Assembly (NCBI GenBank): GCA_021848385.1
Contig: JAJZUQ010000029.1
Span: 1 to 36,927 of the forward strand
DNA: 36,927 nucleotides
Source: Deltaproteobacteria bacterium
Lineage (GTDB): Bacteria > Desulfobacterota > Desulfuromonadia > Geobacterales > Geobacteraceae
Direction: 5' to 3'
Position numbers and translations under genes: made by a program. Shown here piece after piece: positions 25,199 to 29,632 of this stretch (the stretch's first letter is position 1; every line of letters begins with the position of its first letter). The notes under the pieces are model-generated. The model saw nothing but the letters and a program-made list of their open reading frames with translations. It was not told where the DNA came from and searched no databases.

Positions 25199-26506
25199 AT
25201 GCAGCAATTGATCTGGGACGCCGAATACGAATGCATGCCACGGGAAGACCTGGCGCAGCTCCAACTGGAGCGGCTGCAGGCCACGCTCAACCGGGTATAC
25301 AAGAATGTCACCTGCTACCGGAACAAGTTCAACGAGTTGGGGATCGTTCCCGAGGACGTACAGTCCCTGGATGACCTCCAGAAACTGCCGTTCACCACAA
25401 AGGAAGACCTGCGCCTCAACTATCCCTATGGCATGTTCGCCGTCCCGCTGCGCGAAGTTGTCCGCATCCATTCGTCATCCGGAACGACGGGGAAGCCGAC
25501 GGTGGTCGGTTACACCCGCAATGACATCAAGGTCTGGTCCAACCTGGTGGCCCGGTTCGTAACCTCCGCCGGGGTGACCCATGACGATGTGGTACAGATT
25601 GCCTTCGGCTACGGCCTGTTCACCGGCGCCTTCGGGCTTCATTACGCTGCCGAGACTATCGGCGCCTCGGTCATTCCCATGAGTTCCGGCAATACCGAAA
25701 AACAGATCATGATCATGCAGGACTACAAATCGACCGTACTTGTCAGCACCCCCAGCTACGCCATCACCCTGGCGGACAGGATCGAAAAGATGGGGATCGA
25801 TCCGAAGACGCTATCACTCAGGATCGGCCTGTTCGGCGGCGAACCGTGGTCGGATGCCATGCGCCGCGAGATCGAAGAACGCCTCTACATCAGTGCAACC
25901 GATAACTACGGGCTGTCCGAAGTCATCGGCCCGGGGGTCGCGGGTGAATGCCAGTACAAATCCGGCATGCACCTCTTCGAGGATTCCTTTATCCCCGAGA
26001 TTATCGATCCGGACACCGGCCAGGTCCTCCCGCCGGGAAGCATTGGCGAACTGGTGCTGACCACCCTGAACAAGGAAGCATTCCCCATGATCCGGTACCG
26101 GACACGGGACATCACCAGCCTCGACTACACCCCCTGTGCCTGCGGCCGCACCCTGGTCCGGATGAGAAAGACCATGGGGCGTTCCGACGACATGCTCATC
26201 ATCAAGGGAGTCAACGTCTTTCCGTCACAGATCGAAGAGGTGCTCTTCGCCATCGAAGGGTGCGAACCCCACTATCAACTAGTGGTCGACAGGCAAGGTG
26301 CGATGGATGTTCTGGAAGTGCAGATAGAAGTCACGGAGAATATCTTTTTCGACGAAATGAAGAAACAGAAATCATTCCTCGAAGGAGTAGAGAAGAGATT
26401 GCAATCAACCCTGGGGGTCGGTGCCACGGTAAAGCTCGTCGAGCCGAACAGTATTCCCCGCCATATAGGAAAAGCGGACCGGGTGATTGACAAACGGAAG
26501 CTCTAA
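25199..26506 (+). CDS. paaK: Phenylacetate-CoA ligase (second copy)
   Basis: A 435-aa adenylate-forming ligase, a paralog of the enzyme at 17155-18459. It has SSGTTGKP at 93-100 with [17 protein letters not shown] near 240, YRTRD near 300 and [20 protein letters not shown] in the C-terminal domain. All catalytic segments are intact, so both copies should be active. They bracket the transporter genes. They may differ in substrate (phenylacetate against hydroxyphenyl- or indole-acetate) or in working direction. It is the last gene before the dif site; 142 bp separate them and I see no good terminator there. Confidence 0.95.
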
Positions 26507-26648: not shown

Positions 26649-26676
26649 ACTTGACATAATATATCTTATGGGACGT
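26649..26676 (+). other. dif: Probable chromosome-dimer resolution site dif (intact copy)
   Basis: A 28-bp site: left arm ACTTGACATAA (26649-26659), 6-bp centre TATATC (26660-26665), right arm TTATGGGACGT (26666-26676). The inner parts CATAA and TTATG are inverted copies. This is the arm-centre-arm layout of XerC/XerD sites; from memory, the Bacillus subtilis site also begins ACTT and has a TATATA centre, and the E. coli site has the same CATAA-N6-TTATG core. Gene orientation and the octamer GGGNAGGG flip strand here, as expected at a replication terminus. Left is the XerC-type arm and right the XerD-type arm. Confidence 0.85.
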
Positions 26677-26707
26677 AAATGATGGGAATATACCTGACAA
26701 GCATAAT

Positions 26708-26809
26708 GCAGGCAGTCCATAGGCAAGAGCCAGCCGAGGGGCGAGCGGCCGACCGGCCAGCACGTCGCCCCGCTTTCGGCGGTTTGGCTCCTTTGCCTGT
26801 GGGCCTGCC
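26708..26809. repeat. 102-nt hairpin beside dif, unit 1
   Basis: Nested complementary segments form one long stem: GCAGGC with GCCTGC at the base, then AGGCAAGAGCCA with TGGCTCCTTTGCCT, GCCGA with TCGGC, GGGGCGA with TCGCCCC, and GGCCG with CGGCC around a 2-nt tip. It differs from the unit 2 copy by one base. It is non-coding, since an upstream indel shifts the frame between copies. Confidence 0.9.
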
Positions 26810-27073
26810 GGATACTGCGGACAAACTACTAGATTATAGTCTTGATAGTTGTTCGCAAAGTGACACACTTTTAAATTTATCAACAGGGGGTTCCCGGCAA
26901 GACAGTCAAGGGATAAGAGGACAAAAAGCCATATTGGTAAACTTGAAGTGTTAAACAGGTTAACAGGATTTTTTATCAACAGGCAATTCCCCAGTACTGG
27001 CAAGGCTTTATGGGTAAAAACCGTTATTTTGCGTATGTCTCAAAACATCTCACACGTAATGGGGGGCAAATAG

Positions 27074-27265
27074 ATGGCAATTCAAAAAATGGCAAGCGGT
27101 AACGAATTGGCTATGCGGGTAACTTTCCGACTCGACCAGAATCGACTTGAAGAACTGGCAAACTATGCACACCGGGAAGGCTTCACCGTCTCGGTAATCG
27201 TTCGGCACCTTGTCAGCAGATTCCTTGAAGACAGGCGGCGTTATGAAAGGGTCAATCATGCGTAA
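27074..27265 (+). CDS. Ribbon-helix-helix (Arc/CopG-like) protein, unit 1
   Basis: A 63-aa protein with the RHH layout: a short beta strand (MRVTFRL, residues 14-20), helix A from about 21 to 34 (QNRLEELANYAHRE) and helix B from about 38 to 53 (TVSVIVRHLVSRFLED). Such proteins bind DNA as dimers through the strand. GGGGGG lies upstream of the ATG. The last bases overlap the start of the 201-aa gene. It is nearly identical to the unit 2 copy from residue 14 on and differs at the N-terminus. It probably regulates its own operon or marks the element's hairpin or att DNA; the role is inferred. Confidence 0.75.
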   Translation: MAIQKMASGNELAMRVTFRLDQNRLEELANYAHREGFTVSVIVRHLVSRFLEDRRRYERVNHA

Positions 27266-27863
27266 TCAGGTGGCGGCGTCCGGATTCCCGGCACTGGCCG
27301 GGGGGTCCCCCTTGGGGGGTTCCGGCTGTGCCGTAGGGACCGGTGAAACGAGCTTTGCGAGTGAGAGACGCGAGGAAGGGGCTTTGCACCTTCCGTCACC
27401 CTTCCCTCTCGACATGGGCCGGATACTGGTTGACCTCAATACCTCTTTCAACCCTCTCCATCCCGAGTTCATGCTTGATTACCATGTATCGGAAGCGCGG
27501 GAGGGGTATGTGTACCTGTCCATTGCTCTCCCGGAAGGAATGACAAAAGCGTTCATGACCTTCCTAGAGTCCATGTGCGGGTTCTTCCATTTCATCGACA
27601 TCAAAGCCCGTTCAGCGGTGGCCGTTGACAAGGCGGTAAACCATGCCGACCTAGCCGAACGACAAAAAGCACAAGACCTCTTTCGTCTCCAGGTCTGTGA
27701 CCTCTTCGACAGCTTCACAAGTCAGGGCATTGACACAAAATCAGCTGTCAGGCTCACAAATGCTTCCCTCAAGGCCAAAAATCATCCTTGGGCTAGCCAT
27801 GCGGTCATTTTGGACGTTCTCCGTTCAGCGGGCAAATTTCGCACAAGAAAGGGGGGAAAGTAG
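27258..27863 (+). CDS. Unrecognised 201-aa element protein, unit 1
   Basis: I do not recognise this family. The start at 27258 is chosen because the alternative ATG at 27243 is TTG in the unit 2 copy, while 27258 is kept in both and has GAAAGGG upstream. The N-terminal ~30 residues are Gly/Pro/Ala-rich and probably disordered. A compact, highly conserved part follows (residues about 45-130: MGRILVDLNTSFNP, EFMLDYHVSEA, YVYLSIALPEGMTKAFMTFLESMCGFFHFIDIKA). The C-terminal ~70 residues are helical and vary between copies, ending in a basic tail (RTRKGGK). No signal peptide or membrane helix. Replication or integration helper functions are conceivable but unsupported. Confidence 0.75.
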   Translation: MRNQVAASGFPALAGGSPLGGSGCAVGTGETSFASERREEGALHLPSPFPLDMGRILVDLNTSFNPLHPEFMLDYHVSEAREGYVYLSIALPEGMTKAFMTFLESMCGFFHFIDIKARSAVAVDKAVNHADLAERQKAQDLFRLQVCDLFDSFTSQGIDTKSAVRLTNASLKAKNHPWASHAVILDVLRSAGKFRTRKGGK

Positions 27864-27958
27864 AAAACGTTGAAAATGTCATACAAACCGGCTAGATTGT
27901 CCGACTTATTGAGGCATACTTACCGGGTAAGGGGTATCTGTAACTTGTAACATATCGT

Positions 27959-27986
27959 AATTACTAAACTATATCTTATGGGACGT
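27959..27986 (+). other. dif-like site with degenerate left arm, between units 1 and 2
   Basis: Centre TATATC (27970-27975) and right arm TTATGGGACGT (27976-27986) are identical to the intact dif. The left arm AATTACTAAAC has lost CATAA. This is the expected junction when an element with a poor XerC-type arm integrates at dif. Confidence 0.8.
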
Positions 27987-28019
27987 AAAAAAGATGGGAA
28001 TATACCTGACAAGCATAAT

Positions 28020-28121
28020 GCAGGCAGTCCACAGGCAAGAGCCAGCCGAGGGGCGAGCGGCCGACCGGCCAGCACGTCGCCCCGCTTTCGGCGGTTTGGC
28101 TCCTTTGCCTGTGGGCCTGCC
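28020..28121. repeat. 102-nt hairpin beside dif-like site, unit 2
   Basis: This is the same nested stem as at 26708-26809, differing by one base (ACAGGC in place of ATAGGC). The change improves pairing with GCCTGT on the other side, which supports a structural role. Confidence 0.9.
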
Positions 28122-28148
28122 GGATTCAGGCGTATGAATATGACACAA

Positions 28149-28172
28149 GCCCCCGGTTAGTAACACGGGGGC
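28149..28172. terminator. Strong GC hairpin in unit 2, possibly an insulator
   Basis: GCCCCCG (28149-28155) and CGGGGGC (28166-28172) form a perfect stem around a 10-nt loop. There is no U-run on either side, so termination would be Rho-independent only in part. Confidence 0.45.
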
Positions 28173-28243
28173 AGAAATTACATTACAGTATTCAGCATTC
28201 GCCTATGAGATCAGCATGTTAGCCGAAAACAGCCTTTACAACT

Positions 28244-28305
28244 TGAAACAAGATGAAACAAGTGGTAAACAGGTAGAATGAAACAAAATGAAACATGATG
28301 AAATA
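28244..28305 (+). repeat. TGAAACA iteron array upstream of the helix-turn-helix gene
   Basis: TGAAACA occurs at 28244, 28254, 28279 and 28289, with TGAAATA at 28299. Spacings of 10, 25, 10 and 10 bp put most copies on one DNA face. This could be the operator of the encoded DNA-binding proteins or replication iterons. Confidence 0.8.
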
Positions 28306-28315
28306 GGGGGGAAGC

Positions 28316-28714
28316 GTGGCACGAAATAAGAAAAAACCCGGTAAACAGGTCCATCTCTCTCCGTTACAACTCAGGGAAATGCATTTGAGGGAGAAAGCGG
28401 TTTTCGATGTTTTCCCCACGATCGAAGAGAAACCGGAGCCGGTGGGAATCGTTACGCATCATTCTTTGAGGCCACAACCGGCAAGGCAAAAGGCTCGCTC
28501 CCGGAAATTCGATGTCAAGGCAATGCCGAAAGATGACGCGTTGGTTCTCACTGTGGCCGATGTATGCCGCTTGCTGAAAATCTCACGTGTCACGCTGTAC
28601 CGGATTGAAAAGGAGACCCCCCTTCCCGGCCGTGTCAAGCTTGGCGGTCAGGTTCGCTATCATCGGGAAACCCTTGAACAGTGGCTTAAACAAAAAGTGG
28701 AGGGAAAACAATGA
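28316..28714 (+). CDS. Helix-turn-helix protein, excisionase (AlpA/MerR-like) type, unit 2 only
   Basis: A 132-aa protein. The C-terminal part (about 78-127) is a winged helix-turn-helix of the excisionase/MerR-like class: LTVADVCRLLKISRVTLYRI, then PLPGRVKLGGQVRY and ETLEQWLKQK. The N-terminal 75 residues are basic and probably flexible (ARNKKKPGK, LRPQPARQKARSRK). Starts at GTG 28316 with GGGGGGAAG upstream; the stop overlaps the next ATG (ATGA). Such proteins bend DNA to direct recombinases or act as repressors. Here it could direct Xer recombination or repress its operon through the iterons. No counterpart remains in unit 1. Confidence 0.82.
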   Translation: MARNKKKPGKQVHLSPLQLREMHLREKAVFDVFPTIEEKPEPVGIVTHHSLRPQPARQKARSRKFDVKAMPKDDALVLTVADVCRLLKISRVTLYRIEKETPLPGRVKLGGQVRYHRETLEQWLKQKVEGKQ

Positions 28715-28902
28715 CAAACAGGAGACTTGCAAACGGTACTGACCTGGCTATGAAGGTTAGTTTCCGACTCGATCAGGATCGACTTGAAGAACTGGCAAAC
28801 TATGCACACCGGGAGGGCTTCACTGTCTCGGTGATCGTTCGGCACCTTGTCAGCAGATTCCTTGAAGACCGGCGGCGTTTTGAAAGGGTCAATCATGCTT
28901 AA
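28711..28902 (+). CDS. Ribbon-helix-helix (Arc/CopG-like) protein, unit 2
   Basis: A 63-aa paralog of the unit 1 protein, with the same strand (MKVSFRL), helix A (QDRLEELANYAHRE) and helix B (TVSVIVRHLVSRFLED). From residue 20 onward only conservative changes separate the two, such as D for N and F for Y. The first 12 residues differ. It overlaps the helix-turn-helix gene by four bases and the 201-aa gene by eight, so all three are translated together. A DNA-binding role is firm by fold, but the target is not known. Confidence 0.77.
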   Translation: MTNRRLANGTDLAMKVSFRLDQDRLEELANYAHREGFTVSVIVRHLVSRFLEDRRRFERVNHA

Positions 28903-29500
28903 TCTGGGGGCGGCGTCCGGGTTCCCGGCACCGGCTGGGGGGTCCCCTTTGAGGGGTTCCAGCAGGGCCGAAGGAGCCGGTGAAACGAGCTTTGCGAGTG
29001 AGAGACGCGAGGAAGGGGCTTTGCACCTTCCGTCACCCTTCCCTCTCGACATGGGCCGGATACTGGTTGACCTCAATACCTCATTCAACCCTCTCCGCCC
29101 TGAGTTCATGCTTGATTACCATGTTTCGGAAGCGCGGAATGGGTACGTTTACCTGTCCATTGCTCTCCCGGAAGGAATGACAAAAGCTTTCATGACCTTC
29201 CTAGAGTCCATGTGCGGGTTTTTCCATTTCATAGACATCAAGGCCCGTTCAGCTGTGGCAATCGACAAGGCGGTTAATTCTGCTGATCTCGGGAAGCGTC
29301 AAGAGGAACAAGACCGGTTTAGTCTTCATGTCTGCAATCTCTTTGACAGTTTCACAGGTCAAGGACACGACACGAAACAGGCGGTTAAGCTCACAAATTC
29401 CGCTCTCAAAACCGAAAAACATCCTTGGGCGAACTATGCCACTGTTTTAGATGTGCTTCGAGCTGCTGGCCGCTTCCGAAAATCAAAGGGGGTGCGATAA
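28895..29500 (+). CDS. Unrecognised 201-aa element protein, unit 2
   Basis: Same length as the unit 1 protein and collinear with it (constant offset of 1637 bp). The region coding for residues about 28-63 is identical at nucleotide level for 106 bases (28977-29082), while the last 70 residues differ at about one third of positions. The central core is kept apart from a few substitutions (NPLRPEF for NPLHPEF, ARNGY for AREGY). The C-terminal pattern FDSFT-QG-DTK-AV-LTN, HPWA and VLDVLRAAGRF is preserved. Retention of two full-length copies suggests selection for function. Function unknown. Confidence 0.75.
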   Translation: MLNLGAASGFPAPAGGSPLRGSSRAEGAGETSFASERREEGALHLPSPFPLDMGRILVDLNTSFNPLRPEFMLDYHVSEARNGYVYLSIALPEGMTKAFMTFLESMCGFFHFIDIKARSAVAIDKAVNSADLGKRQEEQDRFSLHVCNLFDSFTGQGHDTKQAVKLTNSALKTEKHPWANYATVLDVLRAAGRFRKSKGVR

Positions 29501-29604
29501 CAGAAAATCTTGATTGACGTTGTCTGACAATCCGCCTATGTTGTCCGACTTATCAAGGGATACATGGCGGGTAAGGGTAAGCTATATCTTGTAACATGCT
29601 GATT

Positions 29605-29632
29605 TAATTGGAAAATATATCTTATGGGACGT
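29605..29632 (+). other. dif-like site with degenerate left arm, right border of unit 2
   Basis: Left arm TAATTGGAAAA (29605-29615) is unrelated to the intact arm; centre TATATC (29616-29621) and right arm TTATGGGACGT (29622-29632) are exact. Sequence to the right is ordinary chromosome, so this is the outer junction of the first integration. Confidence 0.8.

Follow-up and report, generated by a model that had tools for sequence, protein, structure and literature searches.

A 36,927-nucleotide (nt) window, contig JAJZUQ010000029.1 (positions 1 to 36,927) of assembly GCA_021848385.1 from a Deltaproteobacteria bacterium of the family Geobacteraceae, contains at its predicted dif (chromosome-dimer-resolution) site two small related DNA units in tandem: unit A (26660..27969, plus strand, 1310 bp) and unit B (27970..29615, plus strand, 1646 bp). 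Comparative analysis of this locus and of related genomes (designated here by G numbers, and the fetched loci by L numbers) suggests that both units are probably satellites of filamentous phages, devoid of a Rep gene of their own and integrating at dif via the host XerC/XerD recombinases. The units share with complete phages, and with a series of smaller elements, a family of proteins that is found mostly near dif.

The dif site and the boundaries of the units

The two units are bordered by three copies of the 17-mer composed of TATATC and TTATGGGACGT, located at 26660-26676, 27970-27986 and 29616-29632; these positions and the resulting unit lengths agree with the first-pass annotation of the sequence. 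Across the 3.26-Mb draft genome, the 11-mer TTATGGGACGT has exactly three occurrences, all at this locus, and the chance expectation for the 17-mer is 0.0002 per genome, as calculated from base composition. The other arm, ACTTGACATAA (26649-26659), is intact at the first copy only, as initially noticed; at the second and third copies it differs from ACTTGACATAA at 6/11 and 7/11 positions, respectively. On the minus strand the left site reads ACGTCCCATAA-GATATA-TTATGTCAAGT, and the reverse complement of 26649-26676 differs at 1/28 positions from the Geobacter sulfurreducens dif as printed in Table 1 of PMC2731167. Matches to dif (at most 3 mismatches to the 22-base core of the printed site) were identified in 44 of 58 genomes, including that of the window, with a single match in 41 of these 44. 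Because of this near identity and of the mostly single genome-wide matches, the left site is regarded as dif, in agreement with the earlier proposal.

In the same printed table, the XerC arm is the one corresponding to ACGTCCCATAA, and the XerD arm is the opposite one, TTATGTAAAGT. As ACGTCCCATAA is TTATGGGACGT on the opposite strand, the arm kept at each boundary is that of XerC and the degenerate arm is that of XerD, which corrects the first-pass assignment of the degenerate arm to XerC. The full dif therefore comprises the XerD arm at 26649..26659 (reverse complement TTATGTCAAGT) and, at 26660..26676, the central region TATATC with the XerC arm, which is also the left end of unit A. Both the attachment (att) site between the units (27959..27986) and the right att site (29605..29632) consist of a degenerate XerD arm, the central region and a XerC arm; no strand is assigned to any of these sites. 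Since the att of a unit combines an intact XerC arm and central region with a degenerate XerD arm, a full dif is present on one side only, and the boundaries support the suggestion that successive integrations at dif rebuilt it on one side. The central region and XerC arm are kept at 17/17 bases, and 6 and 7 of the 11 bases of the XerD arm are changed, as in att sites of the TLC type, a class whose reaction is defined as XerD-first and independent of FtsK. With the arms named from the printed dif, the att layout is therefore of the known type of TLCφ and the gonococcal genomic island (GGI), not a new one.

It had been considered at first pass that relatives lacking the units might have no dif-like site here, or that dif might lie elsewhere on the chromosome. 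Neither was found: each of the three same-genus relatives has one dif match, and none has a homologue of the 201-amino-acid (aa) protein of the units in a profile search. In G001, one dif lies between the same flanking genes as in the window, with flanks approximately 90% identical; this join is not base-exact, because about 2.8 kb of other sequence separates dif from the right-hand gene. In G042, dif is unoccupied, and the joined flanks of the window match across it at 36/37 bases. G036 was rejected as an exact empty site, because dif there has the opposite orientation with respect to the flanking gene.

Mini-units are present in 14 genomes. In seven of these (G032, with GGGCGAT versus GGGACAT, G047, G075, G077, G119, G135 and G138), the two outermost XerC arms are unlike each other; in the remaining seven, the window among them, they are identical. 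Differing outer arms are the expected outcome of recombination inside the central region, in which one arm is brought by the element. By comparison with these relatives, the XerC arm of the right att site may be taken as the original arm of the host. The genome of the window encodes a XerD protein scoring above the family cut-off and a second Xer-like protein. On its left side dif is flanked by a gene (25199-26506) that by eye reads as one for phenylacetate-CoA ligase; many relatives have DNA resembling this flank in their dif stretches.

Gene content of units A and B

Units A and B share a 137-nt block that is 99% alike and an 870-nt block that is 83% alike. Their genes, all on the plus strand, are as initially described: a 63-aa ribbon-helix-helix protein, scoring below the Pfam cut-offs (27074..27265 in unit A and 28711..28902 in unit B), the 201-aa protein (27258..27863 and 28895..29500) and, in unit B only, a 132-aa excisionase-like protein with a GTG start (28316..28714), which matches Pfam HTH_17 (6.6e-12) and, above the cut-off, NCBIfam TIGR01764 (1.8e-7). 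The conserved part of the 201-aa protein of unit A begins at approximately residue 46, and its true start may lie downstream of the annotated one. Between the units, the ratios of nonsynonymous to synonymous substitution rates (dN/dS) of the two shared genes are 0.28 and 0.20, values which indicate purifying selection.

In family searches with the proteins of units A and B, no recombinase was matched, the sole related match being the excisionase-type helix-turn-helix; nor was there any match to Rep, coat, protein-I/Zot or other morphogenesis proteins, in line with the first reading of the open reading frames (ORFs). Units A and B thus have none of the Rep, coat and protein-I/Zot genes expected of a full phage of the Inoviridae.

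The 201-aa family and its association with dif

The 201-aa protein has no match of weight in Pfam, PHROGs or NCBIfam, and a search of 5.8 billion proteins returned 20 matches, two of which are the window's own. By profile search, with the genome of the window included, the family was detected in 23 of the 141 genomes searched from the host's order and, at the level of the class, in 49 of 277; in a sample of 395 genomes of the phylum it was found in five, all within this class. No match was obtained with two family members in a tblastn search of 50,697 phage records.

The loci with the family were fetched for all 49 genomes. A full dif lies at most 2 kb from a family copy in 37 of them and a half-site with the central region in eight more, giving 45/49 genomes with one or the other. 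Neither was found within this distance in G041 (where the contig ends), G121, G611 and G136 (dif 2114 bp away). Per copy (n=66), a full dif is near 41 and a full or half site near 60, with shuffled-sequence values of 0.007 and 0.028, respectively, per 4 kb; the att patterns behind these 2-kb counts had been widened after inspection of earlier loci. With a pattern fixed beforehand, which matches shuffled sequence once per 1.59 Mb, dif was detected in the fetched stretch of 17 of 21 genomes outside the order, 16 of 19 among those previously unseen.

At four loci outside the order (L185, L187, L194 and L204), in genomes G360, G561, G591 and G650, a lone 201-family gene lies 80-96 nt from dif, on its XerC side, among host-like neighbors. 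Copies are also near dif in L191, L192, L193 and L198. A lone family gene of this kind could be a residue, an immunity gene, a domesticated gene or a gene with a host role.

Filamentous phages and smaller elements with the same family

Three dif intervals of 5.8-6.3 kb, in G043, G135 and G136, were read as filamentous phages. Together with those of G126 and G054 they form a class keeping the XerC arm and carrying rep, coat-like, pIII-like and protein-I/Zot genes, and in all five (in G054 at a contig end) the 201-family gene directly follows rep. In the phage of G135, matches were found to Rep_trans (2.5e-48) and to the protein-I/Zot ATPase (Pfam 6e-22, PHROG 2.4e-24), along with a weak match, below the cut-off, to inovirus coat protein B (0.003). 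The gene upstream of rep in this phage (L121 10907-11437, minus strand) encodes a 176-aa protein of phrog_12600 (9e-52), a family with no function named; a similar-looking 176-aa gene is present in the phage of G136.

A second class consists of six phages of 6.3-8.6 kb (G125, G046, G101, G052, G093 and G029) in which the XerD arm is kept and the XerC arm is degenerate; here the 201-family gene is the last one, 28-85 nt from the att site. Their coordinates are L128 674-9312, L127 998-9477, L162 3205-10988, L165 5869-14292, L166 3433-11098 and L163 8405-14740, and their att lies outside the three att classes described in two reviews (PMC4246890, PMC5357621). Overall, the full-length dif-integrated phages with a 201-family gene span 5.8-8.6 kb.

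The Zot family is represented by 19 loci in 18 of the 141 genomes of the order. A 201-family copy is present in the same fetched stretch at 13 of them (iterated profile, E 1e-3), and in G077 a copy of the XerD class sits on a different contig. No copy was detected at this threshold at the five others: G040, where the phage is not at dif; G005 (0.019); G015, where a 72-aa look-alike, read by eye, adjoins the att; and two contigs under 5.5 kb.

Next in size below the phages are elements of 2.5-3.6 kb (G064, G553, G566 and G593), which have a Rep gene and in which neither Zot nor pIII was matched. Shorter still are 19 segments of less than 2 kb, from 14 genomes, that are bounded by XerC arms; 18 of them are gene-bearing mini-units of 0.68-1.83 kb. 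In all 18, a ribbon-helix-helix domain precedes the 201-family domain on the same strand, either separate from it or fused. Both domains lie in one open frame in the 678-bp unit of G030 (L038 4178-4855) and the 792-bp unit of G066 (L111 8365-9156), where a single gene joins the ribbon-helix-helix to the C-terminal half typical of the 201-aa family. Reading of the ORF lists of the 18 mini-units by eye revealed no gene for Rep, coat protein or recombinase; among mini-unit proteins, the family searches covered those of the two window units and of parts of the G135 satellite. These tallies are exclusive of the G043 satellite, whose gene is split and whose right end was not located, the XerD-side units of G030, G064 and G084, and the elements of G593 (1.9 kb) and G649 (702 bp). 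A candidate in G131 was rejected as a mini-unit, since its family copy clusters with that of a phage and the contig stops there. The remaining segment, L118 9172-9493 in G119, is 322 bp long, has two like att sites and no genes, and directly follows a 1824-bp unit.

In a tree of 53 family copies, the five copies from XerC-class phages group together (98/91), the copy from the G135 satellite is placed with those of G138 and G040 and not with that of the neighboring phage, and the G043 satellite copy is placed with four database proteins; the bootstraps of this tree are unsettled and its deep branches weak. Because their copies group apart from those of the neighboring phages, the satellites look like an older line, not like fresh deletions.

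Origin-like stem-loop and long hairpin

In G135, the 6.3-kb phage is directly followed by a 1.74-kb satellite in tandem, and besides att the two have one strong stretch in common: a stem-loop, identical at 34/35 bases, whose phage copy is situated at the 5' end of rep. The corresponding stem-loop of unit B is GCCCCCG-GTTAGTAACA-CGGGGGC (28149..28172, plus strand). All nine Rep_trans-type loci found in the order have this motif at the beginning of rep or close to it, eight by script (in one of these, G095, upstream of a rep fragment) and that of G052 by eye. The stem sequence varies and the pairing is kept, for instance as GACCCCAT/ATGGGGTC in G043. The stem-loop is present in 9 of the 18 gene-bearing mini-units, including unit B, and in the XerD-side unit of G030; its strict pattern, which was picked after the motif had been seen, occurs seven times in the mini-units versus 0.15 times in control shuffles of non-overlapping base pairs. 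The 28149-28172 stem-loop is a candidate site for the Rep protein of a helper phage and may act as a rolling-circle origin. A second motif is common to the 678-bp unit of G030 and the phages of G005, G015, G029, G093 and G101; the phage of G015, the one tested in this group, has a weak match, above the cut-off, to a G2P-type Rep. The searches for the two origin-like motifs and for the hairpin covered the loci other than two sets fetched later.

Near their left ends both units contain a long hairpin of 114 nt on the plus strand (26703..26816 in unit A and 28015..28128 in unit B), within the block that is 99% alike, i.e. above the similarity of the genes. The predicted DNA fold of 26649-26830 has a z-score of -3.76. 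Homologues are present in G032, G064 and G069, with a fragment in G031; none was found in the phage loci searched. Across six sequences, 10 of 37 predicted pairs have changes on both sides that preserve the pair, a pattern compatible with a fold under selection; at -0.77 kcal/mol the covariation term is small, and several other pairs are broken in some sequences. An interpretation as a folded attP of the CTX type was rejected, as the hairpin follows the dif arm and its homologues are positioned elsewhere in other units.

Comparison with known systems

According to the two reviews cited above, TLCφ and GGI have a XerC site and central region similar to dif and a divergent XerD site (PMC4246890, PMC5357621). 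TLCφ of Vibrio cholerae, a TLC-type integrative mobile element exploiting Xer (IMEX), resembles units A and B in its att layout, in lacking morphogenesis genes and in residing at dif, where it often adjoins a filamentous phage (PMC4246890, PMC5357621); unlike the units, in which no Rep was found, it is described there as having a replication module of its own. The same att features are described for GGI, and EludIMEX-1 is presented as having XerC/XerD sites with homology on the XerC side; these elements measure 57 kb and 29.1 kb, respectively, versus 1.3 and 1.6 kb for the units. RS1 of CTXφ is likewise described as a filamentous-phage satellite at dif, with att sites of the CTXφ class, unlike those of the units.

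RS1 carries replication genes. Because no replication module was found in them, the units are likened to the RS1 and TLCφ satellites but not classed with them: by layout they appear to be of the TLCφ type, and by gene content they would fall outside these satellites. Also close to them are the dif phages of G135, G136, G043, G126 and G054, with the same att layout, a 201-family gene and, as in unit B, the stem-loop, here at the start of rep; these differ from the units in their size (5.8-6.3 kb where both ends are known) and in their rep, coat-like, pIII-like and protein-I/Zot genes. The proposed satellites also recall the M13 miniphage, a tiny circle with an origin and a packaging signal that is packaged by helper proteins (PMC10480500); this laboratory construct of 221 nt does not integrate. 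Among the matches listed in a search of titles and abstract starts of the open-access literature, no paper dealt with such units or with filamentous phages at the dif of Geobacter relatives. The first-pass suggestion of a new class of Xer-dependent mini-element or satellite is supported as to the mini-element or satellite nature, and the att layout was already known.

Proposed life cycle and alternative explanations

Under the satellite interpretation, which we consider the probable one, the Rep protein of a helper phage would nick the stem-loop and copy the unit by rolling circle, the single strand would exit the cell packaged in coat protein of the helper, and after entry into another cell the circle would recombine with dif through the host XerC/XerD, successive integrations rebuilding dif on one side. 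Movement of the units and their dependence on a helper are inferred from sequence comparisons. It is less certain that the 201-aa protein, co-produced with the ribbon-helix-helix protein, acts as an element-encoded accessory factor of XerCD, comparable in its job to XafT of TLCφ, and that the long hairpin serves as a signal on the single strand. Several observations weigh against this interpretation. The draft genome of the window (94% complete) has no Zot gene, and Zot was found in only 3 of the 13 mini-unit genomes searched (G040, G077 and G135). No free or packaged form of the units was seen; neither origin-like motif is present in unit A and seven other mini-units, and the long hairpin is in none of the phage loci searched. 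Fold searches gave no significant relative, and the 201-aa family is carried by elements of either att class, a distribution that a XerD-activating role alone leaves unexplained. For contrast with phages outside dif there was one clear case, that of G040, and in G121 phage genes and a family copy are present where no dif is recognizable.

The units could also be satellites whose 201-aa protein acts in replication, packaging or the binding of single strands instead of in Xer recombination. In M13, the position after rep is that of the single-strand-binding gene V, and the homologue directly following rep in the five XerC-arm phages is counted in favor of such a role. In the six XerD-arm phages, however, the gene is last, beside the att site and not beside rep; the phage of G040, which is not at dif, has no detectable family copy; the 678-bp and 792-bp units retain little besides the family gene; and in G136 a further small ORF after the homologue, read by eye, is a possible binding protein. 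This role is rated as rather unlikely, though worth serious consideration. We regard as improbable that the units arose by deletion from dif-integrated filamentous phages and are now immobile remnants, as might be read from the missing helper gene in the same genome, the absence of the stem-loop from unit A, the split gene of the G043 satellite and the resemblance, by eye, of the ORF around the stem-loop of the G135 satellite to the start of rep. Against decay speak the same two-gene operon in 18/18 gene-bearing mini-units, the purifying selection between units A and B, the tandem arrays with intact att sites and, with rough bootstraps, the clustering of satellite copies apart from those of neighboring phages.

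Patchy presence (49/277 genomes), absence from the three same-genus relatives, homologues on phages, tandem copies and differing outer arms make it very improbable that the units are fixed, non-mobile host genes of the dif locus with a terminus or immunity function, an explanation to which the lone family genes amid host-like genes in G360, G561, G591 and G650 would lend themselves. Least credible of all is that they are small plasmid-like elements moved by conjugation, with the hairpin as transfer origin: several units do have a strong hairpin, and the ribbon-helix-helix protein of the G135 satellite is weakly NikA-like (1.2e-4, below the cut-off), but no relaxase or replication gene was seen by eye in the ORF lists of the mini-units, and the common stem-loop and the protein family link them to filamentous phages.

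A wider proposal building on the satellite interpretation is more tentative. A dif-like att and one small operon may be all that a parasitic mobile unit requires to be complete, and such units would rank with the smallest integrative elements known; the ribbon-helix-helix/201-aa pair may be a new module of Xer control common to phages, to satellites with and without Rep, and to single-gene elements of 678 bp; and some hosts may have taken up the lone gene beside dif.

Implications

If the satellite interpretation is true, phage satellites extend to elements without Rep, coat and recombinase genes, and within a single class of bacteria, at one chromosomal site, there is a ladder from the full phage down to a single-gene element. 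The dif of Geobacter relatives is marked as an insertion hot spot. In the literature consulted, the freeing of Xer recombination from cell-division control is described for few studied systems, namely XafT and the gonococcal island, and as to the way in which mobile elements achieve it, the 201-aa family offers a tractable candidate.

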